Positions 20,236-38,494 of a stretch of 64,000 nucleotides of DNA are shown piece after piece. Where the stretch lies: assembly GCA_947494435.1 (NCBI GenBank), contig CANLUY010000001.1:1-64000 (forward strand). The letters are read 5' to 3'. Source of the stretch: an uncultured Litoreibacter sp. GTDB taxonomy: Bacteria; Pseudomonadota; Alphaproteobacteria; Rhodobacterales; Rhodobacteraceae. Under the pieces are notes generated by a model, which searched no databases, had not been told where the DNA came from, and saw nothing but the letters and a program-made list of their open reading frames with translations. A program made the translations under genes and the position numbers. Positions within the stretch are counted from its first letter, which is position 1. Every line of letters begins with the position of its first letter.

Positions 20236-21234
20236 ATGACAATGAGCATGAGCAGTCCACGGCCCCTCCAAGAGCCGCTAAGTCAAAACAGCCCCAAGCG
20301 GGACCTCTGGGTCCTCTTGGGGCTGATGGCGTTATTTCTGTTCGGTTTCGTTGGTCTGGCAGCCACAATCGGCTGGGAAGAAACATGGATGCAGCTCCAA
20401 AAACTTAGCGGCATTCAGATTATTGGCCTGCTTGCGCTTTCGCTCATTAATTACATCTTCCGCGGACTCAGATGGCATCTGTTCTCAACGCGGTTGGGGT
20501 TGAACTTGAAATTACGCGAAAACGTAGTTCATTTCATGGGGGGCTTTGCGATGACCATTACGCCGGGCCGGATCGGTGAACTGGTCCGCCTGCGTTGGAT
20601 TTCGCGCCTCACGGGTTGGCCATTTGAACGCATCCTGCCGTTACCTTTCATTGACCGCGCCTTTGACATCGCTGCAATGGGTATCGTCTTGGCAGTTGGC
20701 GTGGTTCTGTCTCAAACCGGGACAACTGGTGCAATTCCTGTCGCGATGCTTGCTATGCTCGCGGCACTCATCGTCACCCGGCCTGCATTGATCGAGGCCT
20801 TGGTAAAAAGCATCTGGAAACTGGTCGGTAAATGGCCTCGCCGCTTTGTCGGTTTGCGCAAAGCGGCCCGATCCATGTCGGTTTTCAGCACCCCGAAAGT
20901 CGCCATCCCTGCGCTCCTGCTCAGTATCGTCGGTTGGACAGCAGAGGGTTATGCCCTCTACCTGCTGCTAACTTGGATGGGCGCTGATGTCACATTTGCT
21001 GCGGCTACCGTGATTTTCTTGTTCTCCACCTTGGCAGGTGGCCTGACCGGTGCGCCAGGTGGTGTCGGTGGCGCAGAGGCTGCCATGCTCATCCTGTTGG
21101 CAGCCCAAAATGTACCGCTTGAAATTGCCGTGCCAGCCATGGCCGTCATTCGTATCACAACACTTTGGTTCGCGATCCTTATCGGACTCTTGATGTTCCC
21201 GGTCGCCGAAACCCTTTCGAAGAAAAAGGCCTAA
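20236..21234 (+). CDS. Flippase-like integral membrane protein (LPG synthase TM family)
   Basis: A 332-residue protein with about eight transmembrane segments and the signatures of the lysylphosphatidylglycerol synthase transmembrane / UPF0104 family: GGFAMTITPGRIGELVRL near residue 110, and STLAGGLTGAPGGVGGAEAAM near 270. Members often sit beside sugar-lipid biosynthesis genes and are suspected lipid-linked sugar transporters. It begins a same-strand run with dprE1 (five bases downstream) and dprE2, so a role in moving polyprenyl-phospho-sugar across the inner membrane is plausible but inferred. Three in-frame ATGs at 20236, 20242 and 20248 leave the start uncertain. Confidence 0.85.
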   Translation: MTMSMSSPRPLQEPLSQNSPKRDLWVLLGLMALFLFGFVGLAATIGWEETWMQLQKLSGIQIIGLLALSLINYIFRGLRWHLFSTRLGLNLKLRENVVHFMGGFAMTITPGRIGELVRLRWISRLTGWPFERILPLPFIDRAFDIAAMGIVLAVGVVLSQTGTTGAIPVAMLAMLAALIVTRPALIEALVKSIWKLVGKWPRRFVGLRKAARSMSVFSTPKVAIPALLLSIVGWTAEGYALYLLLTWMGADVTFAAATVIFLFSTLAGGLTGAPGGVGGAEAAMLILLAAQNVPLEIAVPAMAVIRITTLWFAILIGLLMFPVAETLSKKKA

Positions 21235-21239
21235 CACGC

Positions 21240-22553
21240 ATGCTTTGGAAAACACTCACATATGCTGGCTGGGGTCGTGTGAAACAGGCCACCGGGCCCG
21301 TCGCACGTCCGGAACGGCTCACATCATTGGCTGACGCCCAAGAGGACAATGCCGGACCAGCAATTGGCAACTGCCGCTCATACGGCGATGCGTGCCTCAA
21401 CTCCAAGGGCAGCGCGATCAACATGACACGGCTGGACCGCGTCAAGTCGTTTGATCCTGACACCGGCATCCTGCATGTCGAAGCCGGGATGCGTGTCGGC
21501 GAAATCGCGCGCCTTTATGCCCCCTTTGGCTGGCTGCCAGCCGTGATGCCTGGCACGGGATTTGCGACCGTTGGCGGCTGCATCGCAAATGATGTCCACG
21601 GCAAGAACCATCACGGAGCAGGCACTTTCGGCAATCATGTGACTGAGATCACGTTGGCCTCTGGCAACACAACACGCGTGATCACGCCGCAAGACGACAG
21701 CGACCTCTTCAAAGCAACAGTTGGTGGACTTGGGCAAACAGGCGTCATCGCATCCGCAAAGCTACAGCTTTTGGCGTGCAAAGGTGACGTGATGACCGTC
21801 ACAGAACGCAGGATCGACGGCTTTAACGAATTTATCGTAGCACTGGACGCATCGCAGGCCACCTATACCGTCGGTTGGATTGATGCCACCGCCAAAGGTG
21901 ACGCGCTCGGCCGCGGCATTTTGGAAGAGGGCGAGACCGGATACGGCCTGATGCCGGAAAAGAAGAAATCAAAGTCCGTCCCGTTCAACGCGCCGCGCTT
22001 TGCTTTATCGAGCCCGGTCGTGAAGATGTTCAATAACGCATATTTCAAGCGCGTCCCTGAAAGCGGGCGAACAAGCGTTAAACCCATTCAGGATTTCTTT
22101 TTCCCGCTGGACCGCATCCATGACTGGAACAAGCTGTACGGCAAACGCGGCTTTATGCAGTTCCAATGTGTCGTCCCTCCTTCGCAGCTTGATGCGCTGC
22201 AGCGCATGTTGGAGAAAATCGCTCATAGCGGTCTAGCCTCCCCTCTTGCCGTAATAAAACGCATGGGGTCAGGTCGCGCTGGCATGATGAGTTTTCCTAT
22301 GGAAGGCTACACACTGGCCGTGGACTTTCGCGCAAGCGCCAAAGCCTACAAACTGATTGCAGAGCTGGAGGGCATGACCGCGAATGCCGGCGGACGTGTC
22401 TATCTTGCCAAAGACGCAACACTTGAGGCCAAGCACGTGCCGACAATGTACCCTGAACTGGACAGTTTTGCTGAGATTGCAAACGCGAGCGATCCTAAGG
22501 GCACACTTGAAACCGACCTCACCCGGCGCCTCAGAATCAGGAGCGCATCATGA
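21240..22553 (+). CDS. dprE1: DprE1-like decaprenylphosphoryl-ribose 2'-oxidase (FAD-dependent)
   Basis: A 437-residue FAD oxidoreductase of the vanillyl-alcohol oxidase fold. The FAD-binding half has CRSYGDACLN and the DprE1 hallmark HGKNHHGAGTFGNHV near 120-134, nearly identical to the mycobacterial segment. The enzyme would oxidise polyprenyl-phosphoryl-ribose at C2', the first half of epimerisation to arabinose. Where the mycobacterial protein has the drug-reactive cysteine (NICVDF), this protein has alanine (TLAVDF). YLAKDATL near 390 keeps the active-site lysine region. It overlaps dprE2 by four bases (ATGA). Confidence 0.85.
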   Translation: MLWKTLTYAGWGRVKQATGPVARPERLTSLADAQEDNAGPAIGNCRSYGDACLNSKGSAINMTRLDRVKSFDPDTGILHVEAGMRVGEIARLYAPFGWLPAVMPGTGFATVGGCIANDVHGKNHHGAGTFGNHVTEITLASGNTTRVITPQDDSDLFKATVGGLGQTGVIASAKLQLLACKGDVMTVTERRIDGFNEFIVALDASQATYTVGWIDATAKGDALGRGILEEGETGYGLMPEKKKSKSVPFNAPRFALSSPVVKMFNNAYFKRVPESGRTSVKPIQDFFFPLDRIHDWNKLYGKRGFMQFQCVVPPSQLDALQRMLEKIAHSGLASPLAVIKRMGSGRAGMMSFPMEGYTLAVDFRASAKAYKLIAELEGMTANAGGRVYLAKDATLEAKHVPTMYPELDSFAEIANASDPKGTLETDLTRRLRIRSAS

Positions 22554-23287
22554 CCGATAACTGGATCATCCTCGGTGCCACATCCTCCATGGCAAAAGCC
22601 TTCGCACGTGCGGTGGCAGATGATGGCGCACGCGTATTTCTGGCTGGACGGGATTTGAAAGACCTTGAAACCAGCGCTTTCGATTGCACCCAGCGCGGCG
22701 CACCGCTGGCGGAAGCCGTGCTGTTTGATGCGCGCGACGCCAATACCTTTGGTCCCATTATTGACCGAGTGACCAAAGAAGACGGCACAATCAACGTGGC
22801 CGTATTCGTAGGCTCCATGCCGCCACAAGCAGATATCGACCTCGATCCCTCGTTAATTGATGGCGTTATCGCGGACAGTTTCACAGGTCCGGCCAAGTTT
22901 CTGCAATCTATCGCCCCAGAAATGGAAGCGCGGGACAGTGGCACAGTGATCGGTGTCGGATCAGTCGCAGGCGATCGTGGACGGATCGGGAACTATGTCT
23001 ATGGCTCCGCCAAAGCGGGCTTTCACACCTACCTCAGCGGATTGCGCAACAGGCTGACGCGATCTGGTGGACATGTCGTCACGGTTAAACCCGGCTTCGT
23101 TGACAGTGCAATGACGTGGGGGATAGAGGGAATGTTCCTCGTCGCACCACCTGAAAAAGTAGCGTCAGACTTATTGACTGCGGTCGAGAAGAAAAAAGAC
23201 GTGATATACACACCGTTTTTCTGGCGCATCATTATGGGGATCATCACGCGCATCCCAGAACGCATTTTCAAGAAGATGAGTGTCTAA
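22550..23287 (+). CDS. dprE2: DprE2-like short-chain dehydrogenase (polyprenylphosphoryl-2-keto-ribose reductase)
   Basis: A 245-residue SDR. The nucleotide-binding motif is ILGATSSMAKAFARA at the N-terminus, and the catalytic Ser-Tyr-Lys triad is visible in GVGSVAGDRGRIGNYVYGSAKAG (split: GVGSVAGDRG, NYVYGSAKAG). The C-terminus RIPERIFKKMSV matches the RHIPRSIFRKLPI-type ending of mycobacterial DprE2, which is specific to this group. It would reduce the 2-keto intermediate to polyprenyl-phosphoryl-arabinose. It is coupled to dprE1 by a four-base overlap and converges on the ubiA-like gene, sharing its last four bases. Confidence 0.84.
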   Translation: MTDNWIILGATSSMAKAFARAVADDGARVFLAGRDLKDLETSAFDCTQRGAPLAEAVLFDARDANTFGPIIDRVTKEDGTINVAVFVGSMPPQADIDLDPSLIDGVIADSFTGPAKFLQSIAPEMEARDSGTVIGVGSVAGDRGRIGNYVYGSAKAGFHTYLSGLRNRLTRSGGHVVTVKPGFVDSAMTWGIEGMFLVAPPEKVASDLLTAVEKKKDVIYTPFFWRIIMGIITRIPERIFKKMSV

Positions 23288-24720
23288 CCACCAAACGCGT
23301 TTTCAAACAGCCCCGCGGCGTAAAACATGATCGTCACTGTAAAGATGATCAGCGAGAGGCCGTGGCGGTCTTTCAAGGCGAAGACGATGGGATCGTGGTC
23401 TTGCTTGCCTTTGTAGCCTAAAGACACCATGCGCCACAGCCAGCCTGCGATAGGGATCATAGCGACCCAGAGCAACCATTGCGTGCGATAGAGCGACATC
23501 GCCTGTTCTGTGAAGCTGTACATAAAGAAGACAAGCAAAGCCGCAAACATGCCCAGACAGGCCACATTAAACAGATCACCCCTATCGGGTTTTCCATAAC
23601 CGCGCCCTGGAAGCCGTTCATCTGACTCTGCCAGTGTCAATTCAGTCAGCCGCTTCACGCAACCAAGCGTGACGAAGACAGGAAAGATAAAAACCAGCAT
23701 ATAGCCGGTCACATAGATCTCTGCCGCTGCGGCCCCTGCAACAACGCGAATTGTATAAAGTGCAGCAAGTGTCGCGATATCCACCCAGCGCAGTCTTTTA
23801 AGCCGCAAGGAATACGCAAGGGACAGCGACATATAGAGAACGATAATGCCAAAGAACGCCCAATTCAGACTGGCGGAGATCCCCAAGGCAAGAACCCCAA
23901 GCACCCCGCAGGTCACCATACCAACAGGTATCGGGACAGCCCCGCTCGCAAAGGGACGGTTCTTCTTTTTGACATGTAAGCGATCTGCTTCGAGATCGAG
24001 CAAATCGTTGACTATATATATACAAGAGGCCGCAGCAGAGAACGCAACAATAGCCAGCAAGATGGTCAGAAACGGTATCAGGCCGAATTGGTGCGCCGCA
24101 ATGAGCGGTAACAAGAGCATTACGTTCTTTACATATTGATGCGGACGCAAAGCGCGCAAAAGATCCAGCCAGTGCCAGCCAGCTGGTAACTCGGTGACGC
24201 CGTGCTCAGTGATCAATTCATTTTTTGCACCCGCAACGGGGCCCACAATGATCGCCTCATCTGCTCTACGCCAAATTGCAAGGTCACTCGCTTCATTCCC
24301 TGCGTAATGAAACCCTCGCTCGCCGTAAGCCTCAACCAAAGCATCCGCTTTGACCTCACCGCGTAAGTTCACATTACCTTTGGACGCGAAGACATTGGGC
24401 GACAACTCATGCACCGCAGCGAGCTCGGTCACCAATGTGTAATCCGAAGCAGAGGCTAAGACGACGTCTATTCCCTGCCGGCGTGCGGCCTCGATCATAG
24501 GTGGCATAGATGGATCAACTGGCATCAAATCCACGCGCGGTCGCGCAAGGTCCGCGAGTTCCGATTTCAATGCTGCTTTGTTGCCGAACGTATTCTTTAG
24601 AACTTTGAGCGTGCCAATCGGGTCTTTCCCCATACCAGCCCAAAAACTCTCGAACAGCATATCGGTACGCAGGAAGGTTCCATCAACATCCAGAACCAAC
24701 GGCTTTGACTTACCAAGCAT
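23284..24720 (-). CDS. HAD-UbiA fusion: probable polyprenyl-phosphate phosphoribosyltransferase with phosphatase
   Basis: A 478-residue two-domain protein. Residues 1-180 are a HAD phosphatase (motif I DVDGT with Asp11 and Asp13; GNEASDLAIW near 141). Residues from about 187 form a UbiA-family membrane prenyltransferase with RPHQYVKN near 192-199 and the aspartate-rich NDLLDLEAD at 238-246, as in Mycobacterium Rv3806c, which attaches 5-phosphoribose to decaprenyl phosphate. The HAD part would remove the 5-phosphate, a separate protein in mycobacteria. NoeC of Azorhizobium, needed for D-arabinosylated Nod factors, is a related protein. ATG 24720 has AGGGG upstream. Together with dprE1/dprE2 this gives a complete pathway to a lipid-linked arabinose. 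Confidence 0.82.
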   Translation of the reverse strand: MLGKSKPLVLDVDGTFLRTDMLFESFWAGMGKDPIGTLKVLKNTFGNKAALKSELADLARPRVDLMPVDPSMPPMIEAARRQGIDVVLASASDYTLVTELAAVHELSPNVFASKGNVNLRGEVKADALVEAYGERGFHYAGNEASDLAIWRRADEAIIVGPVAGAKNELITEHGVTELPAGWHWLDLLRALRPHQYVKNVMLLLPLIAAHQFGLIPFLTILLAIVAFSAAASCIYIVNDLLDLEADRLHVKKKNRPFASGAVPIPVGMVTCGVLGVLALGISASLNWAFFGIIVLYMSLSLAYSLRLKRLRWVDIATLAALYTIRVVAGAAAAEIYVTGYMLVFIFPVFVTLGCVKRLTELTLAESDERLPGRGYGKPDRGDLFNVACLGMFAALLVFFMYSFTEQAMSLYRTQWLLWVAMIPIAGWLWRMVSLGYKGKQDHDPIVFALKDRHGLSLIIFTVTIMFYAAGLFENAFGG

Positions 24721-24722
24721 CG

Positions 24723-25535
24723 TTACCCCTTGGTTCGGAACACACAACCATCGCTCACAAGTTCAGGCGGTGTCAGGCAAATGGATCGGGCCACGCGCCA
24801 AGCCGCTAGAACTTTCGGAATATAAGCGCGCGTCTCCGCATAAGGTGGCACGCCATTGTGGCTTCTCACCGCACCCTCGCCCGCATTATAGCCGGCAAGC
24901 GCAAGGATAGGATCGCCGTTGAATTCTTTCATCAACCAATCAAGGTAGGCGACACCCCCTTTGATATTCTGTCCGGGGTCGGTTGAGTCCGTCACACCAA
25001 AGCGTGCCGCGGTATCAGGAATTAGCTGCATCAACCCTTGCGCGCCTTTGTTGCTTTCCGCGCCGATGCGCCCGCCCGACTCAACGGAGATCAAAGCAAG
25101 GATCAATGCGGGCGACACCCTCTTATCAAGTGTCTGGATCAATATATCTGTCCCATGCGCCAACGCGATCTTTTGCAAGGTATCGAGCCTCGGCTCCGCC
25201 ACAGCCTTTCCGGCCGGTGCTTTTGCGACATGATCTACAGCATCCGTGAAACGCCCCCGCACCGGCGTGCCGATAGCAGGAGAAACTTTGTCCCAGAACC
25301 AATCCAAATCACTGACTGGCGCTTTCGGGCTGGCTTTCGGCGCGCTTGCCACTTGTTTGGGTTTATCGCTCGGTTTGATTTGAACCGTGATCCGCTTGCT
25401 GCCACTGGATTTGGGCGGTGCGATCTTACGAAAGGTGAAATCCCCGCCAAAAGCAGGCTTGTGGGAGCCCGCAATGACAGGGTCAGTTGCGCTGATCACC
25501 AGCGCAAGGAGGGATAAAACGAGTCGCTTAGACAT
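24723..25535 (-). CDS. Lytic transglycosylase, SLT domain
   Basis: A 270-residue periplasmic peptidoglycan hydrolase. A signal peptide at the N-terminus (MSKRLVLSLLALVISATD) is followed by a lysine/proline-rich linker and an SLT domain from about residue 130: the catalytic Glu is in ISVESGG, with NKGAQGLMQLIPDTAARFGV (20 residues) and ALAGYNAGEGAV following. It cuts muropeptide strands with 1,6-anhydro ring formation. ATG 25535 is chosen because it directly gives the signal peptide; upstream in-frame sequence is basic and unlike a protein N-terminus. It ends two bases before the UbiA-like start, so they may share a transcript. Its place between the arabinose genes and the pilus locus could reflect a role in opening the wall for the Tad machine. 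Confidence 0.88.
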   Translation of the reverse strand: MSKRLVLSLLALVISATDPVIAGSHKPAFGGDFTFRKIAPPKSSGSKRITVQIKPSDKPKQVASAPKASPKAPVSDLDWFWDKVSPAIGTPVRGRFTDAVDHVAKAPAGKAVAEPRLDTLQKIALAHGTDILIQTLDKRVSPALILALISVESGGRIGAESNKGAQGLMQLIPDTAARFGVTDSTDPGQNIKGGVAYLDWLMKEFNGDPILALAGYNAGEGAVRSHNGVPPYAETRAYIPKVLAAWRVARSICLTPPELVSDGCVFRTKG

Positions 25536-25912: not shown

Positions 25913-26101
25913 ATGACTAAACTGTTCAAAAACTTCGTAGCTGACGAATCTGGCGCCGTAACTGTAGACTGGGTTGTTCTGACTGCAGCCATCGTTGGCC
26001 TCGGCATTGCTGTTATGGCTTCTGTTTCTGGCGGTCTGCAAGACCTGTCCGGCGACATTGCTAACCAGCTGAGCACACAAGGTATCACAACAACTTTCTA
26101 A
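25913..26101 (+). CDS. flp1: Flp-type IVb pilin (major pilin)
   Basis: A 62-residue prepilin. A short basic leader MTKLFKNFVADESG would be cut by the prepilin peptidase after the Gly at residue 14; the mature chain starts AVTVDWVVLTAAIVGLGI, a hydrophobic helix. Classical Flp pilins have Glu-Tyr at +5/+6 after the cleavage site; here these are Asp-Trp, a variant seen in rhodobacterial Flp proteins. It is the structural subunit of the Tad adhesive pilus. GGAGGG precedes the start, and a strong terminator follows, so it is likely produced in large excess over the downstream machinery. Confidence 0.9.
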   Translation: MTKLFKNFVADESGAVTVDWVVLTAAIVGLGIAVMASVSGGLQDLSGDIANQLSTQGITTTF

Positions 26102-26780: not shown

Positions 26781-27629
26781 ATGAGAATCTTATTTGGGTT
26801 GGTGCTGGTACTCGGGGTTGGTCTCGCCGGCTTTGCCGCCTATCTCGCAAAAAACCGCATTGGCGAATATCAAGCCACTTTGGCAGAACAAGAAGCCAAG
26901 CTGGCTAGTAACGTCCCCCTAGAACCTGTTTTTGTCGTCAAACGCCGCATCAAGTATGGTGAGCGTCTCACAAAAGAAGACGTGCGTCTTGTTGCATGGC
27001 CGGAAAATGCCATCCCTGCGGGCGCATTCCAGCACGGCAAGCACCAAAAGGGCACACCCTTGTTCCCGGAAGATGGCGAATTGCGCACAGTTCTACGCGT
27101 GATGGAAAAAGACGAGGCCGTCCTCCTCGCAAAAGTAACAGAGCCCGGTGAAGATGCCGGCGTGTCCTCCCGCCTTCAAAAAGGCATGCGCGCCTTTGCA
27201 TTGCGCGTTGACGTCTCTACCGGTGTGTCGGGCTTCCTGCGCCCAGGTGACTTGGTGGATGTATATTGGTCCGGTAAAGCCAGGGGCCGCCGCGTGACGA
27301 CTTTGATCCAAAAGAACTTGCAGCTTCTTGCTGTCGATCAGATTGCAGATGGTGACCGCAACGCACCAACAATCGCGCGGACAGTTACCGTCATGACATC
27401 GCCAGACCGCATCGCGGCATTGGCACAAGCGCAGTCTTCAGGTCGTCTTACCCTCGCCTTGGTTGGTGCCGGCGATGACACAGAGGTGGCCGAGATCGAA
27501 GTTGACCAAAACGAATTGCTCGGCATCGAGATCGCACCGAAGATCGTCGCAGAGAAAGAACGCGTCTGTACCGTCAAGACCCGCAAAGGCGCCGAGGTGG
27601 TGGAAATTCCAATCGCATGTAACGACTAA
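26781..27629 (+). CDS. cpaB: Tad pilus assembly protein CpaB/RcpC
   Basis: A 282-residue inner-membrane/periplasmic component. One N-terminal transmembrane helix (MRILFGLVLVLGVGLAGFAA) is followed by a SAF-type domain (VFVVKRRIKYGERLTKEDVRL near 50-70) and the RcpC region (GVSGFLRPGDLVDVYW near 150). It stabilises the secretin channel of the Tad machine. The C-terminus has two cysteines (RVCTVKT, PIACND) that may form a disulphide. It is third in the locus and followed by its own terminator, so cpaC needs a separate promoter or read-through. Confidence 0.93.
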   Translation: MRILFGLVLVLGVGLAGFAAYLAKNRIGEYQATLAEQEAKLASNVPLEPVFVVKRRIKYGERLTKEDVRLVAWPENAIPAGAFQHGKHQKGTPLFPEDGELRTVLRVMEKDEAVLLAKVTEPGEDAGVSSRLQKGMRAFALRVDVSTGVSGFLRPGDLVDVYWSGKARGRRVTTLIQKNLQLLAVDQIADGDRNAPTIARTVTVMTSPDRIAALAQAQSSGRLTLALVGAGDDTEVAEIEVDQNELLGIEIAPKIVAEKERVCTVKTRKGAEVVEIPIACND

Positions 27630-27658
27630 GCCTTGTCGACTTAGGAAAAACAACACGG

Positions 27659-27699
27659 AGGGCGCGGCACATTATCTTGAGGCCGCGCCTTCTTTTTTT
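27659..27699 (+). terminator. Strong intrinsic terminator between cpaB and cpaC
   Basis: GGCGCGGC (27661-27668) pairs with GCCGCGCC (about 27682-27689) around a 13-base loop and is followed by TTCTTTTTTT. It lies 30 bases after cpaB, within what is usually one tad operon. Confidence 0.85.
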
Positions 27700-27846
27700 A
27701 CCATCTGTGGGTAGGTGTTGCTCTCACCCCACATAAACAAAGAGGTCCAACCGACTGATTCTTGCAATAAATACTGAAATCGCACATGGTTCATCAAATT
27801 GGGCGTAAGACCCATTTCACACCAGTGATCAGAGAGGCAGGATCAC

Positions 27847-29271
27847 ATGAAAATGAAGCAGTTAATTGGTGCAGGCCTTATTGGGCTTGCAGTTTCGACA
27901 TTCACCCCGGTGATGGGCTTTGCCCAAAATCTTAGCATCACAAGCGGCTCCACGGCCCGAAACTTGAATGTTTCGATCAACCGTGCCGTTGTTGTTGAAA
28001 GCGACGTCCCGTTCGCAGAGCTTTCCGTTGCTAACCCCGGTATTGCAGACATTGCGACACTCTCTGATCGGACGATTTACGTCCTCGGCAAGTCGCCCGG
28101 ACGCACGACACTCACCCTTCTGGGTCCAGACGGTAAGCTGATTACCAATGTAGAAGTGCGGGTCGCACCAGATATCGCTGAATTCAAAGAGCGCCTTCGC
28201 GAAATCCTTCCAGGTGAGAAGATTGAAGTGCGCACTGCAAATGACGGCATTGTCCTGTCTGGAACAGTTTCGTCTATCCTGAAGCTTGATCGCGCTCTTG
28301 ATTTGGCATCGCGGTACTCACCTGACGCTGTTTCTAACCTGATGAGCGTAGGCGGCACACAACAAGTTATGTTGAAAGTGCGCTTCGCCGAAATGAGCCG
28401 TTCCGTTTCCAAAAACCTCTCGGTCAGCCTCGGGTTCTCCGGTCTGACAGGTAACTTTGGCGCAAAGGGCGGCACAAACAGCAACATCAACAACGCAACA
28501 ACCAACGGTATCCTTGCAGGGCCTAACGCAGCGGGTGCAACCGCCGCAGGCACAAGCAACGGTGGTCTTGCCATTGGCTTCGGAAGCGGCAGCCTTCAAG
28601 CGGCTGTTCTGATCGAAGCCCTTGAAACTAAAGGACTTGTTCGCACTTTGGCGGAACCGAACCTGACAGCCCTCTCAGGCCAGCAGGCGGAATTCCTGGC
28701 AGGTGGTGAAATCCCGATCCCCGTCTCAAGCGAAGACGGCATCGCGATCGAATATCGCCCGTTTGGTGTAGAATTGGCGTTCACACCGACAGTGGTGAAC
28801 GATGATGTTATCAACCTCAACCTCGCCACGTCTGTTTCCAGCATCGACACAACGAACTCGGTGACAACAGGCGGCGTATCGGTACCATCGTTCAACAAAC
28901 GTGCATCTTCCACAACGGTGGAGCTGCGTGACGGTGAAAGCTTCGCAATCGCGGGCCTCTTGCAGGACGACTTTGTTGATCTTGCCGGTCAGGTGCCATG
29001 GTTGGGTGATGTCCCTGTACTGGGCTCCCTCTTCCGCAGCGCAAACTATAACCGTCGTCAGACAGAACTTGTCATCATCATTACGGCGCATCTCGTAACG
29101 CCAACACGCGGTGACAACTACGTCCTTCCGACAGATCGCATTCGGGTCCCGACCGAGCGTGAATTGTTCCTCAACGGAACAGTGGCCAAAGCAGTTCGCA
29201 GCTCCAACGGAGCAACTGGCGAAGTTGCACGGCAAGACTTCTCGGGTTCCTACGGCTACGTTTTGGAGTAA
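27847..29271 (+). CDS. cpaC: Tad pilus secretin CpaC/RcpA
   Basis: A 474-residue outer-membrane secretin with a signal peptide ending near PVMGFA. The N-terminal pilus-secretin domain (VVVESDVPFAELSVANPGIAD, residues about 39-60) is followed by a BON-like segment and the secretin domain, with AEPNLTALSGQQAEFLAGGE near 270 and the PWLGDVPVLGSLFRS hallmark near 385. It forms the channel through which the Flp pilus leaves the cell. The glycine/asparagine/alanine-rich stretch 205-245 is a low-complexity insertion between domains. The OmpA-like lipoprotein gene starts six bases after the stop. Confidence 0.95.
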   Translation: MKMKQLIGAGLIGLAVSTFTPVMGFAQNLSITSGSTARNLNVSINRAVVVESDVPFAELSVANPGIADIATLSDRTIYVLGKSPGRTTLTLLGPDGKLITNVEVRVAPDIAEFKERLREILPGEKIEVRTANDGIVLSGTVSSILKLDRALDLASRYSPDAVSNLMSVGGTQQVMLKVRFAEMSRSVSKNLSVSLGFSGLTGNFGAKGGTNSNINNATTNGILAGPNAAGATAAGTSNGGLAIGFGSGSLQAAVLIEALETKGLVRTLAEPNLTALSGQQAEFLAGGEIPIPVSSEDGIAIEYRPFGVELAFTPTVVNDDVINLNLATSVSSIDTTNSVTTGGVSVPSFNKRASSTTVELRDGESFAIAGLLQDDFVDLAGQVPWLGDVPVLGSLFRSANYNRRQTELVIIITAHLVTPTRGDNYVLPTDRIRVPTERELFLNGTVAKAVRSSNGATGEVARQDFSGSYGYVLE

Positions 29272-29277
29272 TATCAG

Positions 29278-29916
29278 ATGCTTAAATCAACCAGCACTCT
29301 CGCAATCCTCGCGGCCGCCTCTTTGAGCCTCGCTGCATGTGGAAGCTTTAACCGCGAAGCCGGTACAACCATCGACGAAGGTGGTTTCGGCAACCCGACG
29401 ATGACAAACACGCTGATCTCCACAGGTGAGCTGGCTGTCGCACAAGGTCTCGCACGTCGCTTCTCCAATGAGGTCAGCCCATCGATCACATTCGGCTTTA
29501 ACAGCGCAGTCCTTGACGAAAATGCCCGTGCAACACTGATGCAGCAGGCAAGCTGGATCCGCCAATTCCCGGAAGTTCGCTTCCGCGTTTACGGACACAC
29601 GGATTTGGTCGGCTCAAGCAGCTATAACAAAGCACTCGGCCTGCGCCGTGCGAATGCAGCCGTGGCCTTCTTGTCGCGGCAAGGCATCAGCCGGTCTCGT
29701 TTGGAAGCTGTCGCATCCTTTGGGGAAACACGCCCATTGATTGCGACACCAAACCGCGAGCGTCGCAACAGACGTACGGTCACTGAGGTCACAGGCTTTG
29801 TTAAGGGGCATCCCGCCCTGCTCGATGGTAAATATGCACGTATTATCTACCGTGAGCACGTTGACTCAGCAGGTCGCGCCGTCTTTGACGAAGTGTCTGC
29901 AGGTGTAACGAACTAA
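29278..29916 (+). CDS. OmpA-domain lipoprotein in the Tad locus
   Basis: A 212-residue lipoprotein. The signal ends with the lipobox LAAC (Cys21), and the OmpA/MotB peptidoglycan-binding domain covers about 75-170 (ITFGFNSAVLDENA, VYGHTDLVGSSSYN, LGLRRANAAVAFL). It replaces CpaD at the position where that protein is encoded in Caulobacter-type tad loci, and probably anchors the secretin to the cell wall. The 208-base gap that follows holds a hairpin and the cpaE promoter region. Confidence 0.9.
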   Translation: MLKSTSTLAILAAASLSLAACGSFNREAGTTIDEGGFGNPTMTNTLISTGELAVAQGLARRFSNEVSPSITFGFNSAVLDENARATLMQQASWIRQFPEVRFRVYGHTDLVGSSSYNKALGLRRANAAVAFLSRQGISRSRLEAVASFGETRPLIATPNRERRNRRTVTEVTGFVKGHPALLDGKYARIIYREHVDSAGRAVFDEVSAGVTN

Positions 29917-30089
29917 TAATCAGAATATTCCTCAGATATTCGCCAATTTAGCCGTAATCTCGCCCTTATTCCTGAGCATTGATTGTCTCGACAACGCCAA
30001 CAATTCCGACTGAATACGGAAATTTGGCACGAAAAGGCAATCAGGCCGCTCTAACGCAAGCTTAAGAAAGCTTCGCTAGACAGCCACAA

Positions 30090-30108
30090 CCCCGGAACAA
30101 ATCCGGGG
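30090..30108 (+). promoter_or_regulatory. Leader hairpin before cpaE
   Basis: CCCCGGA-ACAAA-TCCGGGG is a perfect 7-bp stem with a five-base loop, ending 16 bases before the cpaE start at 30125 and just before a GGGA that could be its ribosome-binding site. It lacks a T-tract, so a role in mRNA stability or translational control is more likely than termination. Confidence 0.5.
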
Positions 30109-30124
30109 AACTTGGGATAAGAGC

Positions 30125-31381
30125 ATGACGAGTAGTGTCGCATTACAACCTGACGCGGATCCAATCACAGCTTGTACTGTGGCACGGGACGTTCAGAACT
30201 TTGATCTTCTTATCGAAGACATGGAAGCGGAACTCGGCGAAAGCTGGGGCGATCTCAGCTTTGAGGACGCCACAGCATATCTCAGCCAGCCAGATGCAAG
30301 CGCACTTGAATTCATCGCAATCGCTGTTGACGACAAAGATGAAGACAAGCTGGCCGAGATCGGCGACCTTATACAGCGCTGCAAAGTCATCGGCACGCGT
30401 GTCATTCTCATCGCTGATGATCTCTCCCCTATCGCATTGCACCAATTGCTCAAACTCGGTGCGAATGATTTCGTCCCCTACCCTCTTCCGGAAGGCGCCT
30501 TGCACGAAGCGATTGAGCGTGTGCGCGCGCCCGATCCTGAACCTGTCGTTATCTATGAGGGTGGCGCAGAAGGCTCAACCTCCTTGCGCCGCGCAAAGCC
30601 AGGTGATCATGACGGAGTAATCTTGCCGGTTCACGGCCTAGCCGGTGGTGCGGGCAGCTCAACATTTGCCGTCAACCTTGCTTGGGAATTGGCGACTGTA
30701 GACAAGAACAAGACGCCGAAAGTCTGCTTGTTGGACCTTGACCTACAGTTCGGCTCTGCCTCCACATATCTCGACCTTCCCCGCCGGGATGCGGTCTATG
30801 AAATGCTGTCGGACATGGAAAACGCCGACGATGAAGCGTTCAAACAGACATTGCTACAATTTAACGACAAGATCAGCGTCCTAACGGCGCCTGCGGATAT
30901 CTTGCCGCTTGATATCATCAGTCCTGCTGACATTGAACGCCTGCTGGAATTGGCCAAGCGTAACTTCGATTACGTTGTGATCGACATGCCAACATCGCTG
31001 GTACAGTGGACAGAAACCGTGTTGGGCATCTGTCAGGTTTACTTTGGTTTGTTGGAGTTGGATTTGCGTTCAGCGCAAAACGCCTTGCGGATGATCCGTG
31101 CTTTGAAAGCAGAAGACCTGCCACATGAGAAAATTCGCTATGCACTCAACCGTGCACCAAAATTCACGGATATGTCTGGTAAAAGCCGCGCCAAGCGTAT
31201 GGCGGAGAGCTTGGATATCGACCTTTCCCTGCACTTGCCGGATGGCGGCAGACAAGTTCCAGAGTCCTGTGATCATGGTTTGCCCGTCGCCGATACCGCG
31301 ATGAAGAACCCCTATCGCCGCGAAATTGCAAAACTTGCGCAATCCTTGCTCGACCTCGAGCAGGCTGAAGCAACCGGATAA
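30125..31381 (+). CDS. cpaE: Tad pilus localisation ATPase CpaE/TadZ
   Basis: A 418-residue ParA/MinD-superfamily protein. An N-terminal receiver-like domain (1-150) precedes a P-loop domain whose deviant Walker A reads GLAGGAGSSTFAVNLA near 175-190: the signature lysine of KGGxGK is missing, as is common in TadZ proteins. DLDLQFGSASTYLDL is the switch region. It positions the Tad complex at the pole. The 208-base upstream gap suggests an own promoter for cpaE-cpaA. cpaF starts 12 bases downstream. Confidence 0.92.
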   Translation: MTSSVALQPDADPITACTVARDVQNFDLLIEDMEAELGESWGDLSFEDATAYLSQPDASALEFIAIAVDDKDEDKLAEIGDLIQRCKVIGTRVILIADDLSPIALHQLLKLGANDFVPYPLPEGALHEAIERVRAPDPEPVVIYEGGAEGSTSLRRAKPGDHDGVILPVHGLAGGAGSSTFAVNLAWELATVDKNKTPKVCLLDLDLQFGSASTYLDLPRRDAVYEMLSDMENADDEAFKQTLLQFNDKISVLTAPADILPLDIISPADIERLLELAKRNFDYVVIDMPTSLVQWTETVLGICQVYFGLLELDLRSAQNALRMIRALKAEDLPHEKIRYALNRAPKFTDMSGKSRAKRMAESLDIDLSLHLPDGGRQVPESCDHGLPVADTAMKNPYRREIAKLAQSLLDLEQAEATG

Positions 31382-31392
31382 AGGTTAACCCA

Positions 31393-32811
31393 ATGTTTTC
31401 AAGATATAAAAAGACGGACGGTGCGCCAAAGCCGGTCGAGAAAGAAGTTGCGGTCCCTGCTCCAAAAGCCGAGGCTCCAAAGCAAGCCGCGCCCGCGAAG
31501 GCACCCGCTGCGCCTGTTACGGACAAAGATCTCAAGCGTCGTCAGAAGCTTGAAGAAATCCGGTCTGAGCTGCACCACCGCCTGCTCGACAACCTTAACC
31601 TTTCCGCACTCGAAGATGCTCCTGAAAAAGAGCTGAAATCAGAGATCGCCGCGATTTGCGCCGAAGGTCTTGAGGAGATGGCGATTGTCCTGAACAAGGA
31701 AGAGCGTCAAAACCTGCACGCCGAATTGTTCGACGAAGTCACTGGTCTCGGACCGCTTGAGCCGCTTCTGAAAGATGAAACGATCAACGATATTTTGGTC
31801 AACGGTCCAAACCGGGTGTTCGTGGAACGCTCAGGTAAGCTCGAACTGACCCCAACGCGGTTCAAAGACGAAAAGCATCTTCTTAGAATTATTGATAAAA
31901 TCGTTTCGGCCGTTGGTCGTCGTGTCGATGAATCCAACCCCTATGTGGATGCCCGTTTGAAAGACGGCTCGCGTTTCAACGCAATGGTCCCACCGATCGC
32001 GGTCGACGGGTCCCTGGTCTCCATTCGTAAGTTCAAGAAAGAAAAGCTGGGCATTGATGACCTTTGCAAGTTTGGCGCGTTCTCAGAAGAAATGGCCGCC
32101 TACCTGCAAGCCGCAGTGGCCTGTCGTTTGAACATCATCGTGTCAGGCGGTACAGGCTCAGGTAAAACGACAACGCTGAACGCGCTGTCCTCTTTCATCG
32201 ACAACTCCGAACGTATTCTAACGATCGAGGATACGGCGGAACTTCAACTCCAGCAGGTCCATGTCGGCCGGATGGAATCCCGCCCCGCCAACGTCGAAGG
32301 CAAAGGTGCTGTCTCCCAGCGTGATTGTCTGCGAAACGCCCTTCGGATGCGTCCTGACCGCATCATCGTGGGTGAGACGCGTGGTGAAGAAGTCATCGAC
32401 ATGCTCCAAGCGATGAACACGGGCCACGACGGCTCCATGACCACAATCCACGCCAACTCTGCGCGTGATGGCGTGTCTCGTCTGGAAAACATGATTGCCA
32501 TGGCCGGTATCGAAATGCCGATCAAAGCCGTGCGCGCGCAAATTTCAAGCGCTGTGAACCTGATCGTGCAGGCCTCGCGTCTGCAAGATGGCTCGCGTCG
32601 CATGGTTTCCATCACCGAAATCACCGGGATGGAGGGGGACGTGATCTCCATGCAGGAAGTATTCCGCTATCAGCGCCTCGGCCTTCAGCCGGACGGCAAA
32701 ATTCTTGGGCAATTCACACCACTTGGCGTGCGCTCTCACTATTCTGAACGGTTCAAGCAGTGGGGCTACGATTTGCCAGCATCCATCTACGAACCTGTTG
32801 CTGCGGAGTAA
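31393..32811 (+). CDS. cpaF: Tad pilus ATPase CpaF/TadA
   Basis: A 472-residue type II/IV secretion ATPase that powers Flp pilus assembly and retraction at the cytosolic face of the inner membrane. The N-terminus has a lysine/alanine/proline-rich segment (10-45). Walker [10 protein letters not shown] is at 252-260, the Asp box and Walker B follow ([23 protein letters not shown]), and the His box is in [10 protein letters not shown]. Length and motifs are standard. tadB begins six bases downstream. Confidence 0.97.
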
Positions 32812-32817
32812 TCGGAC

Positions 32818-33786
32818 ATGAACATCTCCTTTGAACCCCTTCTCTACGGTATTATCTTCGTCGCCGTTTTGCTGATGATCGAGGGCCTCTATCTGGTGGT
32901 CTTCGGCAAATCGATCAGCTTGAACAACAAAGTCAACCGTCGTCTGGATATGATCCAGAAAGGTGGCAGCCGCGAAAAGGTTTTGGAACAGCTCCGTAAG
33001 GAGATGAACCAACACATGAAATCGGGCGGTATCCCGCTCTATTCCATGCTGGCAGACAAGGCTTTGCGTGCCAATATCGCGTTTTCGCCGACAGCGCTTA
33101 TCGCGATTATGGGCGTCCTCTCCGTGATTATCTTTGGCATGCTGACGCATTTGACGGAAGCCTCCGCTGCAATCCGCCTGCTGATCGCAGTCGTTATGGG
33201 CGTCGGCGCGGTCTATGTCTGGGTGAACAACAAATGCAAAAAACGTATGGCGCTCCTCGAGGAGCAATTGCCTGATGCCATCGAGCTTATGGTCCGCTCC
33301 CTGCGCGTCGGTCACCCGTTTAGCTCAGCCATTAACATCGTTGCAAAAGAGGTCGCTGACCCGCTTGGCACGGAATTCGGCGTGATCGCCGATGAATCCG
33401 CCTATGGGCGGGACGTGTCCGAAAGCCTCAAGCACCTGGCGGAACGTATGGACATGCAGGATTTGCGCTTCCTCGCCGTGGCCGTGACAATTCAGCAGAC
33501 CTCCGGTGGTAACCTTGCCGAAATTCTGCACGGCCTTTCACAGGTTATTCGGGCTCGCTTCAAATTGTTCCGTCGTGTGAAAGCGATCACTGCTGAAGCG
33601 AAATGGTCCGGCGCGTTCCTGTCGGTGTTCCCGTTGCTCGCACTGGTCGGCATCAACGTGCTGGAGCCGAACTATTACGTCGACGTGAAAGAAACCAAAT
33701 TCTTCATCCCGGCTGCATTGGTCGTAGGCGTCTTTCTGACCGTAAACATGATCTTCATGAAGATCATGGTGAACATCAAAGTCTAA
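32818..33786 (+). CDS. tadB: Tad pilus inner-membrane platform protein TadB
   Basis: A 322-residue GspF-type platform protein with an N-terminal helix (LLYGIIFVAVLLMIEGLYLV), two central hydrophobic segments near 90-140, the cytosolic T2SF domain (LPDAIELMVRSLRVGHPFSSA near 160) and a C-terminal membrane pair. It partners TadC and the CpaF ATPase. It is packed between cpaF and tadC with gaps of 6 and 12 bases. Confidence 0.95.
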   Translation: MNISFEPLLYGIIFVAVLLMIEGLYLVVFGKSISLNNKVNRRLDMIQKGGSREKVLEQLRKEMNQHMKSGGIPLYSMLADKALRANIAFSPTALIAIMGVLSVIIFGMLTHLTEASAAIRLLIAVVMGVGAVYVWVNNKCKKRMALLEEQLPDAIELMVRSLRVGHPFSSAINIVAKEVADPLGTEFGVIADESAYGRDVSESLKHLAERMDMQDLRFLAVAVTIQQTSGGNLAEILHGLSQVIRARFKLFRRVKAITAEAKWSGAFLSVFPLLALVGINVLEPNYYVDVKETKFFIPAALVVGVFLTVNMIFMKIMVNIKV

Positions 33787-33798
33787 GGGGGTCATGCG

Positions 33799-34782
33799 AT
33801 GTTAGACCAAATCAATACTATTCTCGTCGATAGCCTCGGCCCGCTTGGCCCTGTCATCGCCGTCGGCATTTTGGGCGTGATCCTCGTGGCAATCACCTTG
33901 CCGATCATGCTCAACAAGAAGCAAGATCCAATGGATCGGCTGAAGGCACGTGTCAAAAAGAATGGCGGTCAGCAAGCCGGCCCCAATGATACCGCCGCTT
34001 TGCGCCGCAAGGCCGGGACTGACAAGCTCGACAAATACGCCAAGTTCCTCGAACCCGAGGATGAGAAACAGCTGGCGGGCATGAAGCTGAAACTGCTTCA
34101 AGCGGGCTACAAACATAAGTCAGCCGTGCGAACCTTCCACTTTATGCAATTTGCATTGGGACTTCTGTTCCTTGTGGGTGGGTTGATCTACGCTCTGTTT
34201 CTGGCGGGTGATGATATCACCACGCAGAACCTCATCATTGCCATCATCGCCCCCGGCGCGATTGGCTACTACCTGCCAAAATACTGGATCGAACGACGCC
34301 GTCAGGAGCGTGTGACCCAGATCGAGGAAGGCTTTCCCGATGCGCTCGACCTGATGCTGGTCTGCGTGGAAGCCGGTCAAGGCCTCGATCAGGCGATTAT
34401 CCGTGTGGCCACTGAGATCCGCGCAGGCTACCCCGCTCTCGCAGACGAATTTGAAATCGTTGCGCATGAGATGAAAGCCGGTAAAGATCGGATCGTTGTT
34501 CTCAAGGACATGGCAGAGCGCGCAGGCGTGCCGGATGTTGCGTCTTTTGTGACCGTGATGATCCAATCAGCCAGTTTTGGTACATCAATTGCCGAAGCCC
34601 TGCGGGTCTATGCCTCGGAAATGCGTGATAAACGCGTCATGCGCGCAGAAGAAAAAGCAAACGTCTTGCCTACCAAGCTCACACTTGGCACGATGATGTT
34701 TACCGTACCGCCCCTTATGATCATTCTGATCGGGCCATCGGTTTATGGCATCTACGTCAATCTTAACGGTGGAGCGTTATAA
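33799..34782 (+). CDS. tadC: Tad pilus inner-membrane platform protein TadC
   Basis: A 327-residue GspF-family protein, second platform subunit. It has an N-terminal transmembrane helix (PVIAVGILGVILVAITLPIM), a central membrane pair (about 115-165), the T2SF domain with FPDALDLMLVCVEAGQGLDQA near 175-195, and a C-terminal helix ending the protein. The 3' end overlaps the start of the tadD-like gene. Confidence 0.95.
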   Translation: MLDQINTILVDSLGPLGPVIAVGILGVILVAITLPIMLNKKQDPMDRLKARVKKNGGQQAGPNDTAALRRKAGTDKLDKYAKFLEPEDEKQLAGMKLKLLQAGYKHKSAVRTFHFMQFALGLLFLVGGLIYALFLAGDDITTQNLIIAIIAPGAIGYYLPKYWIERRRQERVTQIEEGFPDALDLMLVCVEAGQGLDQAIIRVATEIRAGYPALADEFEIVAHEMKAGKDRIVVLKDMAERAGVPDVASFVTVMIQSASFGTSIAEALRVYASEMRDKRVMRAEEKANVLPTKLTLGTMMFTVPPLMIILIGPSVYGIYVNLNGGAL

Positions 34783-35350
34783 CGGTTTGAAACATGTGGT
34801 GGGGACCGCGCTGATCCTAACAGCTCTCGCTGGTTGCGAGCCAAAGCCCCCGACCGTCGGTGCGGGGGCTGACCCTTTTGCACCTACAGGCTCAGTCGGA
34901 CGGGCAGAGTCCGTTGATGGTCTGATCGTGGGTCACAGGCTGATGGCAGCAGGCGAATATGAACTGGCCTTGAAAGCCTATCTTCGGGCCGCCGGCAAAA
35001 CCGGAACTACTGTCGATGTCTTATCTGCCTTGGGGTCCGCAAATTTGCATCTCGGGCGGCTCGGACAATCGGAAGACCTGCTCCGCAGGGCGGTGAAAAC
35101 CGACCAGACTTTCGTGCCTGCCTGGAACAATCTAGGCGTCGTCCTGATGGAACGTGGCAAAATTGGCGAGGCATCAAAGGTATTTCAGACAGCCTTTGCC
35201 CTAGATAGTGGCAATTCTGACGAAATCCGGCAAAATTTGCAGCGCGCGCTCGCGCAAATCGAAAACCCAGCGTATACTTCAGAAAAATCCGAAGCCTTCG
35301 ACCTGGTGCGTCGTGGCAATGGGCGCTACTTGATCCTATCAACGCCCTGA
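34769..35350 (+). CDS. tadD: TPR lipoprotein TadD
   Basis: A 193-residue lipoprotein; a signal peptide with lipobox LAGC is followed by TPR repeats (MAAGEYELALKAYLRA, NLHLGRLGQSEDLLRRAVKT, NNLGVVLMERGKIGEASKVF). In Tad systems TadD acts as the pilotin-like factor that helps the secretin assemble. The start is uncertain. GTG 34769 gives MERYNGLKHVVGTALILT as signal; TTG 34787 has a GGAG site upstream but gives a shorter signal. Either way it overlaps or abuts tadC, implying coupling. Confidence 0.85.
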   Translation: MERYNGLKHVVGTALILTALAGCEPKPPTVGAGADPFAPTGSVGRAESVDGLIVGHRLMAAGEYELALKAYLRAAGKTGTTVDVLSALGSANLHLGRLGQSEDLLRRAVKTDQTFVPAWNNLGVVLMERGKIGEASKVFQTAFALDSGNSDEIRQNLQRALAQIENPAYTSEKSEAFDLVRRGNGRYLILSTP

Positions 35351-35404
35351 GCTGCTCGCGCCTGAGAATTGAGGGCCATATTGAGAGCAGCAGAGGACGT
35401 ATTC

Positions 35405-36250
35405 ATGCGCCACACCAAGACAGTTGTACTGTGCCTTTCGAGTGCACTGGCCCTAGCGGCTTGTGGAAAATCTGAAAACGCGGAAGTGTCACGCACGCTG
35501 AAAGGCGTGAATGTGATCGACGAAAGCAACCTGAACGACATTATGCTTTCTGCTGCGGATCCAAACGAAGCGGTCACATATTTTCAACGCACTGCAGGTG
35601 AAAACCCAGACCGCATTGATGTACAACGCGGCTTGGCCACGTCCCTGATCCGCGCGAAACGTGCAACTGAAGGTGCGGTAGTCTGGAAACGTGTCACAGA
35701 GCACTCAGAGGCGACACATGAAGATCGCATGAGCTATGCGGATGCTTTGATCCGCACCGGAGATTGGGATCGTGCCGAAGCAGTTTTGGACGACGTCCCC
35801 CCCACGATCGAGACATTCCAGCGCTACAAACTTGAAGCCGTCGTCGCAGACAGCAACAAAGAATGGAAAAAAGCCGACAGTTTCTACGAGACAGCCATCG
35901 GCCTGACTACAAAACCAGGCGGTGTTCTGAACAACTGGGGCTATTCGAAGCTGAGCCGTGGTGACTACCGCGAAGCAGAGCGTCTTTTTGGTGAAGCGAT
36001 CACCTATGATCCGACACTGTTCACCGCTAAAAACAACATGGTCTTGGCCCGTGCCGCGCAGAAAAACTACACTCTGCCGCTGATCCAAGTCACACAAATC
36101 GAACGGGCCCAGTTGCTGCACACCATGGCCCTTGCGGCCATCAAACAGGGCAACACGAACGAAGGCAAAGACCTTCTGGAACAAGCCATCGAAGCGCATC
36201 CACGTCACTTTGAAGCAGCCGTTCGCTCGCTGAAAAAACTGGACGGCTAA
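35405..36250 (+). CDS. Second TPR lipoprotein of the Tad locus
   Basis: A 281-residue lipoprotein with lipobox LALAAC (MRHTKTVVLCLSSALALAAC, 20 residues) and several TPR-like helices, the clearest being LNNWGYSKLSRGDYREAERLFGEA near 190 (split: LNNWGYSKLSRG, DYREAERLFGEA). It resembles TadD and probably works beside it in the periplasm; two TPR proteins in a row are usual in rhodobacterial tad loci. The ATG at 35405 follows GAGGA. cpaA starts five bases after the stop. Confidence 0.87.
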   Translation: MRHTKTVVLCLSSALALAACGKSENAEVSRTLKGVNVIDESNLNDIMLSAADPNEAVTYFQRTAGENPDRIDVQRGLATSLIRAKRATEGAVVWKRVTEHSEATHEDRMSYADALIRTGDWDRAEAVLDDVPPTIETFQRYKLEAVVADSNKEWKKADSFYETAIGLTTKPGGVLNNWGYSKLSRGDYREAERLFGEAITYDPTLFTAKNNMVLARAAQKNYTLPLIQVTQIERAQLLHTMALAAIKQGNTNEGKDLLEQAIEAHPRHFEAAVRSLKKLDG

Positions 36251-36255
36251 ACCCG

Positions 36256-38324: not shown

Positions 38325-38494
38325 GCTCTGGCCCCGTTTCTTTTTGCCGGAACCCTACACAGAGAATTCAACAATTCAAAGCACGAAGCCTTTTTGACGC
38401 CAGAAACAAGGGTAATGCCAAGATCACGCCCAAGAATGGTCGAATTTCACCGCTATCCCTTGACCAAATCTTTGCACGCAGAGTGAGCAGCACC

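Follow-up and report, generated by a model that had tools for sequence, protein, structure and literature searches.

Locus organization

The window analysed here is a stretch of 64,000 nucleotides from an uncultured Litoreibacter sp. (contig CANLUY010000001.1), and the system in question is a set of five genes that flank a tight adherence (Tad) pilus locus in it: a flippase-like gene, dprE1-like and dprE2-like genes and a HAD-UbiA fusion gene on one side, and a gene for a predicted membrane glycosyltransferase of the C class (GT-C) at the far end (Table 1). A first-pass annotation of this DNA had placed the first four side by side, and our coordinates and family matches agree. The HGKNHH hallmark that it read in dprE1 is found at residues 120-125, DprE2 ends in RIPERIFKKMSV as it had given, and the four-base overlap between dprE1 and dprE2 is an ATGA common to the dprE1 stop and dprE2. 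It did not state the orientation of the HAD-UbiA gene, which is read from the minus strand, converges on dprE2 and starts 2 bp downstream of the lytic transglycosylase gene on the same strand. The annotation did not go beyond the donor; the locus owes its interest to what it left aside, namely the probable transferase and the setting beside a Tad pilus.

Table 1. Features of the donor gene set, the Tad locus and the GT-C gene in the window
Feature	Position	Strand	Basis or remark
PF03706/TIGR00374 flippase-like membrane protein	20236..21234	+	PF03706 148.6 bits (cut-off 33.4); TIGR00374 101 bits (cut-off 43.2)
dprE1-like flavin adenine dinucleotide (FAD) oxidase (polyprenylphosphoryl-ribose 2'-oxidase)	21240..22553	+	best PDB match 4aut DprE1, 2.5e-73; HGKNHH
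dprE2-like short-chain dehydrogenase/reductase (SDR)	22550..23287	+	best PDB match 21gq_C DprE2, 1.7e-23; YGSAK at 151
HAD phosphatase-UbiA phosphoribosyltransferase fusion (polyprenyl-phosphate-ribose from phosphoribosyl pyrophosphate, PRPP)	23284..24720	-	NF006088; PDB 8j8j
Lytic transglycosylase (SLT)	24723..25535	-	PF01464 87.9 bits; part of the Tad neighbourhood
Flp-like pilin, 62 aa, proposed acceptor	25913..26101	+	position, size, GAVTVDW motif
Second Flp-like pilin, 68 aa	26345..26551	+	resembles the first
Tad core: cpaB/rcpC, secretin, OmpA-like, cpaE/tadZ, cpaF/tadA, tadB, tadC, two TPR, prepilin peptidase	26781..36744	+	
GT-C membrane protein, 528 aa, proposed DPA-dependent arabinofuranosyltransferase	36738..38324	-	AlphaFold model, AftA match

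Predicted synthesis of the lipid-linked sugar

The steps to polyprenyl-phosphoryl-D-arabinofuranose (DPA) are well supported by the predicted gene products. Compared with solved proteins, the DprE1 of the window matches nine DprE1 sequences with E-values from 2.5e-73 to 1.5e-69, and the next family follows at 3.8e-9. Its alignment with 4aut spans residues 8-433 of 437, and HGKNHH aligns with the same motif there, whose His we take to have a role in FAD attachment. Near position 22316 the protein reads GYTLAVDF where 4aut, which we take to be the M. smegmatis chain, has GWNVCVDF (Ala for Cys). If this Cys is, as we presume, the one that binds benzothiazinones, the DprE1 of the window would be expected to be naturally insensitive to covalent inhibition. 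The best solved match of DprE2 is followed by one at 1.4e-12.

The HAD-UbiA protein lies above the cut-off of NF006088 (486 versus 351 bits), and decaprenyl-phosphate phosphoribosyltransferase is the only solved protein that it matches (two sequences, best 8j8j at 2.3e-26; E up to 0.001). Its Pfam HAD match is sub-threshold (23.6 bits, cut-off 27). The protein carries the ND..D...D of loop II, the R..E of loop IV and the DxDGT of the HAD half, and 24 sequences show no variation at N238, D239, D242, D246, R357 and E360 of UbiA or at D11 and D13 of HAD. In its AlphaFold model (predicted local distance difference test, pLDDT, 91.7) one half matches 8j8j in Foldseek (3.6e-11) and the other half HAD phosphatases. 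A DprE1 phylogeny, a check proposed in the first-pass annotation, gave a single clade for the Rhodobacterales type (38 rows of 81, support 100, FastTree) with the window inside.

The annotation had concluded that the organism makes a lipid-linked D-arabinose. Family and PDB matches, invariant motifs, the HAD-UbiA model and the DprE1 clade all support this prediction, and we consider it highly probable that such a pathway operates in this organism. The counterparts of these HAD-UbiA residues were mutated in ORF15 of Citrobacter, a HAD-UbiA fusion with which farnesyl-phosphate-ribose was produced from PRPP and farnesyl phosphate, according to the sections of PMC11127046 drawn on here. Since HAD-UbiA enzymes have been characterised there, the donor pathway is not new.

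A candidate transferase at the far end of the Tad locus

The AlphaFold model of the GT-C protein has a pLDDT of 92.9. Its top structural match is the arabinosyltransferase AftA, and the upper matches are nearly all GT-C enzymes. As in the GT-C superfamily, the fold is polytopic and the loop that follows the first helix bears acidic residues, E36 and D38 being conserved in 38 and 39 of 40 sequences, respectively. The protein of the window has no Pfam match (four of 40 members give weak GT87 matches, best E 0.023) and no PDB sequence match below E 0.5, and the three of 40 members searched against NCBIfam have no match there. A search of the organism's own genome with PMT_2 (PF13231) gave no match either, so that Pfam did not reveal the transferase. 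It is likely that we are dealing with a GT-C family lacking Pfam and NCBIfam annotation, and that the lipid-linked arabinose pathway feeds this tad-encoded transferase. Outside the family Rhodobacteraceae the protein is rare, being detected in three of 290 genomes of the class, its own included and the other two weakly.

Joint occurrence of dprE1, GT-C and Tad

We examined two samples, the first of 150 genomes of the window's family including its own, and the second of 195 further genomes. The window-type DprE1 occurs in 44 genomes of the first sample (at least 460 bits in all but one, whose 129-bit hit is cut by a contig end) and in 43 of the second (one in two pieces), and a divergent second type (250-282 bits in the first sample) in 12 and 25, respectively. 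DprE1 hits of 37 bits or less, which are FAD oxidases, were dropped before counting; carriers with early contig ends and hits with internal stops were kept. For cpaC, eight genomes with hits of at most 277 bits were dropped in the first sample, and a limit of E 1e-60 was applied in the second.

We found the GT-C gene in 48 of the 150 genomes, including all 44 carriers of the window-type dprE1 (Fisher p 1e-33, without correction for descent). The other four are G095, G101 and G137, which have only the divergent DprE1, and G086; the hit in G101 is weak (43 bits) and was kept in this count. In the second sample, where GT-C hits below 150 bits were dropped (G511, G543, G551 and G568), the gene is present in 42 of the 43 carriers and in six of the 152 other genomes, three of which (G443, G453 and G540) have the divergent DprE1. 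On a FastTree tree of five Tad proteins (120 rows), which is a tad-gene tree and not a species tree, the GT-C label needs 14 changes. Among 15 independent pairs that differ in dprE1, GT-C differs in the same way in 13.5 on average and in the opposite way in none (p ~1.2e-4). The two genes are gained and lost together.

Two further counts carry less. Eleven of the 36 nearest named genomes, hand-picked and all dprE1 carriers, have GT-C in 11/11, a count that is not independent because at least three of them share coordinates with sample genomes. Two culturable carriers, Maritimibacter alkaliphilus HTCC2654 (L024) and Rhodovulum strictum DSM 11289 (L026), hold all four donor genes (flippase, dprE1, dprE2 and HAD-UbiA) next to Tad genes, and their genomes also contain GT-C. 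When the open reading frames (ORFs) of 122 tad stretches were clustered, carriers proved richer in dprE1, dprE2, the flippase and some unnamed ORFs, and poorer in some flank clusters; the unnamed ORFs are perhaps antisense. GT-C and HAD-UbiA are not among the 14 clusters listed, so this analysis adds little.

Weak GT-C homologues (39 and 35 bits) also lie within about 2 kb of the divergent DprE1 in two genomes (G543:C11 and G568:C26), which suggests a role for this GT-C family at further arabinose loci.

Empty sites and rearrangements

In G138, a genome of the same genus, the tad locus and its left flank are kept and the five genes are absent at two sites: the matched stretches of the NUDIX and lytic transglycosylase genes lie ~20 bp apart, and the prepilin peptidase gene is 180 bp from the next gene. 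A search of the whole G138 genome for dprE1, HAD-UbiA and GT-C found none of them, and a search of its locus found neither the flippase gene nor dprE2. In stretches with both flanking genes, the GT-C site measures 1.06-2.35 kb in 36 of 37 carriers and less than 200 bp in 66 of 69 non-carriers; in the 37th carrier, G055, it is inverted. In three stretches (L128 of G055; L118 and L230 of G087) the tad block is inverted relative to the accessory genes, which puts the GT-C gene or the dprE block on the other side.

The dprE genes lie in the tad stretch in 31 of the 44 first-sample carriers and 14.6 kb from cpaC in G087. In four more (G003, G029, G115 and G124) dprE1 is away from the tad core, yet beside the lytic transglycosylase and flp genes. 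Six carriers are cut by contig ends, G148 is split, and G097 has no Tad. In G097 an in-frame ORF (L093:10023-11237) fuses the counterparts of DprE2 residues 1-162 and of residues 55-292 of a tad TPR protein; unless it is an assembly error, this is probably the scar of a deletion of the intervening tad genes and HAD-UbiA. G525 was considered as another carrier without Tad and rejected, its tad genes lying across a contig gap. With Tad in 86 of the 87 carriers of both samples and G097 resembling a deletion, we saw no intact set without Tad.

Distribution and neighbourhood of the donor genes

DprE1 relatives occur across Proteobacteria and some other phyla (at least 580 stretches), and the loci compared here are the best 80 of these, 36 nearest (L005-L040) and 44 more distant (L041-L084). 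The first-pass annotation had proposed to map the four-gene neighbourhood: among the 36 nearest loci, several of which are cut by contig ends, dprE2 is present in all, a flippase-like ORF in 27 and HAD-UbiA in 25. In the more distant loci, one of them from Rhodobacterales, we found a window-related UbiA ORF in 32/44 and a flippase-related ORF in 13/44. Given its relatives across Proteobacteria and its presence in 44 of the 150 family genomes, the set is widespread and the pathway is not rare.

Tad core genes accompany dprE1 in 23 of the 36 nearest loci. Six others show the lytic transglycosylase gene without a core gene (five at contig ends), five are short contigs, and two (L017 and L025) show neither. 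The NUDIX, DUF983, sigma factor and EF-hand genes to the left of the set recur in L005 only; the pilus side is thus kept and the other side is not.

The HAD-UbiA site itself varies. In the tad loci of G143, G061, G045, G137 and G596 the frames at this site are 433-460 aa long and the UbiA half alone, from about position 177-191, matches the model well, the HAD half being lost, broken or diverged. A divergent HAD-UbiA (164 bits to the protein of the window, an open frame of 475 aa without stops) lies beside the lytic transglycosylase gene at the tad locus (L207) of G126, a genome without GT-C or window-type dprE1, and is perhaps a leftover of the module.

The Tad locus and its pilins

The locus has CpaB (TIGR03177, 211.7 bits, cut-off 71), a secretin, a TadA-type ATPase, TadB/TadC and a prepilin peptidase, with matches to PF00263, PF16976, OmpA, T2SSE, TadB_TadC_N, T2SSF, Peptidase_A24, TPR and AAA_31; the TadA-type NCBIfam model scores slightly below its cut-off (348.8 versus 373.15 bits). 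The lytic transglycosylase gene is found in 34/44 carrier and 68/78 non-carrier tad stretches, and flp-like ORFs in 117 of the 122 stretches fetched. The second Flp-like pilin has no Flp family match. Adjoining the GT-C site, at 38483-39805, lies a gene for an AAA ATPase, whose only match to a model of anti-phage ATPases is weak and partial (31 bits, cut-off 510); the gene is present in 37/44 carrier and 71/78 non-carrier stretches.

We compared ten features of the best-scoring Flp-like ORF between 45 carriers and 77 non-carriers. In the plain comparison carriers have more Ser/Thr among the final 10 residues, fewer acidic residues and a larger share of [ST]x?[FY] ends. Of the six traits tried on independent pairs, low acidity gives p 0.04, [ST]x?[FY] 0.06, an aromatic end 0.06 and T[FYW] 0.25, and the Thr count is not significant (median p 0.38). 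Thresholds and motifs were chosen after seeing the data, and the Flp of G138, the sister without the module, also ends in ITSTF; the tail signal is a post hoc hint only.

A proposed arabinosylation module and its alternatives

The gene identities, the conserved motifs, the GT-C fold and the shared gains and losses of dprE1 and GT-C come directly from computation; the sugar, its flipping, its transfer and the pilin as acceptor we infer. We favour, with some reserve, the proposal that the five genes form one module which arabinosylates some part of the Tad pilus, with the Flp pilin as the most likely acceptor. In this scheme the UbiA domain would load polyprenyl phosphate with phosphoribose taken from PRPP, and the HAD domain fused to it would strip the 5'-phosphate; DprE1 would then oxidise C2 and DprE2 reduce it, turning ribose into arabinose. 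The PF03706 protein, the proposed flippase for the polyprenyl-phosphate pentose, may assist the lipid-linked sugar across the inner membrane, and the GT-C enzyme would add arabinose on the periplasmic side to a Tad pilus component encoded between the two halves of the module. In its most specific form, to which we give an even chance, the proposal says that Rhodobacteraceae O-arabinosylate Flp with a mycobacterium-like D-arabinofuranose (D-Araf) through a new GT-C family, and that a cassette subject to gain and loss re-coats the pilus, perhaps against phages that bind it or for adhesion to surfaces.

Several observations weigh against this proposal. Both oxidoreductases score under their NCBIfam equivalog cut-offs (DprE1 381 versus 500 bits for NF053785, DprE2 143.5 versus 250 for NF053786), so we call them only DprE1-like and DprE2-like homologues; PRK07102 scores DprE2 higher, at 254 bits, under its own cut-off of 267. 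The first Flp-like pilin matches PF16982 below threshold (E 0.074, 13 bits, cut-off 33.5), and on independent pairs the Ser/Thr counts of Flp tails show no significant association with the module (median p 0.63). GT-C occurs without any DprE1 detected in G501, G597 and G616; G596 has dprE1 and Tad and no GT-C at its usual site; G123, G127 and G128 have dprE1, dprE2 and GT-C and no recognisable HAD-UbiA. Some counted hits contain stops, namely GT-C in G128 (in two pieces), G479 and G576 and dprE1 in G554; a split or stop-bearing dprE1 hit was also counted in G546. Finally, 81 of the 124 Tad genomes of the first sample lack the window-type DprE1, and the module is thus optional for the pilus.

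Another acceptor is unlikely, yet it is the alternative that survives best: D-Araf would be made and transferred, to O antigen, capsule, exopolysaccharide or several proteins, and the placement at tad would be historical. The published Gram-negative pentofuranose systems modify O antigens, with DprE1/DprE2 homologues predicted for Araf (PMC11127046, in the sections cited), and the divergent DprE1 of the first sample has its own HAD-UbiA no more than 2 kb away in 11/12 genomes, but cpaC on the same contig no more than 50 kb away in 0/12. Against this alternative, the window-type set flanks tad as two separate blocks, dprE1 and GT-C show joint gain and loss, dprE1 clear of the tad core stays with the flp and lytic transglycosylase genes in four of five cases (not in G148), and no intact set lacks Tad among the 87 carriers.

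It is improbable that the lipid carries a different pentofuranose (ribose or some other epimer), on which the DprE1-like and DprE2-like proteins act differently. The equivalog scores agree with such a reading, as do the polyprenyl-phosphate-ribose made by the Citrobacter HAD-UbiA and the ribose and xylose donors used by the GT-C enzyme of PMC11127046. However, DprE2 adjoins DprE1 in 36/36 nearest loci, DprE1 and DprE2 enzymes are the best solved relatives of the two proteins, and the same source, as far as cited here, places DprE1/DprE2 homologues in candidate systems of Araf-containing glycans. Very improbable is a GT-C-like protein that serves Tad assembly or structure, unrelated to sugar and co-occurring by shared inheritance: its gene does lie at the end of the tad locus and fold similarity alone shows no function, but 79 of the 124 Tad genomes lack both GT-C and the window-type dprE1, the independent pairs stand at 13.5 to 0, GT-C enzymes make up nearly all of the upper fold matches, and the acidic E36 and D38 are kept in most sequences.

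Implications

D-arabinose is chiefly familiar as a constituent of the cell wall in tuberculosis bacteria. The arabinosylation module proposed here would give a role to lipid-linked D-arabinose in a Gram-negative organism without arabinan, and it names an unannotated candidate transferase family. Tad pili are thought to aid the colonisation of phytoplankton by marine Rhodobacterales (PMC8383342), and arabinosylation of Pseudomonas pilin is reported to protect against phages specific for the pilus (PMC12369383, PMC11841053). Sugar coats on pilins could therefore shape attachment and phage susceptibility in this ocean group.

Comparison with known systems

Our searches, confined to open literature, turned up no paper that we recognised as dealing with Tad pilus arabinosylation. 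In the mycobacterial DPA pathway (Rv3806c, Rv3807c, DprE1, DprE2 and Rv3789) with AftA, the likeness lies in the reaction logic, the solved homologues and AftA as top GT-C match. Mycobacteria use the phosphatase Rv3807c and the SMR-type Rv3789, whereas the window has an unrelated HAD and PF03706 (contrast drawn from parts of PMC11127046). In Azorhizobium, noeC, noeH and noeO of noeCHOP are proposed for the D-arabinose precursor in the portion of PMC2443382 used here; there the target is the Nod factor, unlike in the window, and the likeness is one of description and not of sequence. Flp1 of Aggregatibacter is a Tad pilin reported to be glycosylated, the cited part of PMC6182317 naming no arabinose or enzyme, and RcpC is implicated in that glycosylation (PMC12307814, in part).

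The Citrobacter youngae O1/O2 system (ORF15 HAD-UbiA, MATE flippase, GT136) shares with the window a HAD-UbiA with the same motifs, a flippase and a periplasmic GT-C, as far as the cited sections of PMC11127046 describe it. It uses a MATE flippase, an O antigen acceptor and the epimerase ORF13, in contrast to PF03706 and DprE1/DprE2 in the window. As the flippase candidate is of PF03706 and not of the MATE type, the window holds a variant, not a member, of that three-component system. For the GT-C protein of the window the fold is supported, and its likeness to GT136 is one of fold class.

Among the closest parallels is the group IV system of Pseudomonas paraeruginosa and P. aeruginosa (TfpW with PSPA7_6245-6251), in which, according to the parts of PMC11841053 and PMC12369383 cited, a GT-C enzyme puts D-Araf on pilin and the cluster contains ubiA. 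There the acceptor is a type IVa pilin and tfpW belongs to the pilA gene group, whereas the locus of the window encodes a Tad/Flp pilus and is not a type IVa pilin locus; the GT-C protein of the window, which has no Pfam or NCBIfam model, is likened to TfpW by description and not by sequence. By analogy, the module of the window would work like the pilin arabinosylation of Pseudomonas group IV on another pilus class, with a flippase candidate of PF03706 and a GT-C enzyme that has no family model.

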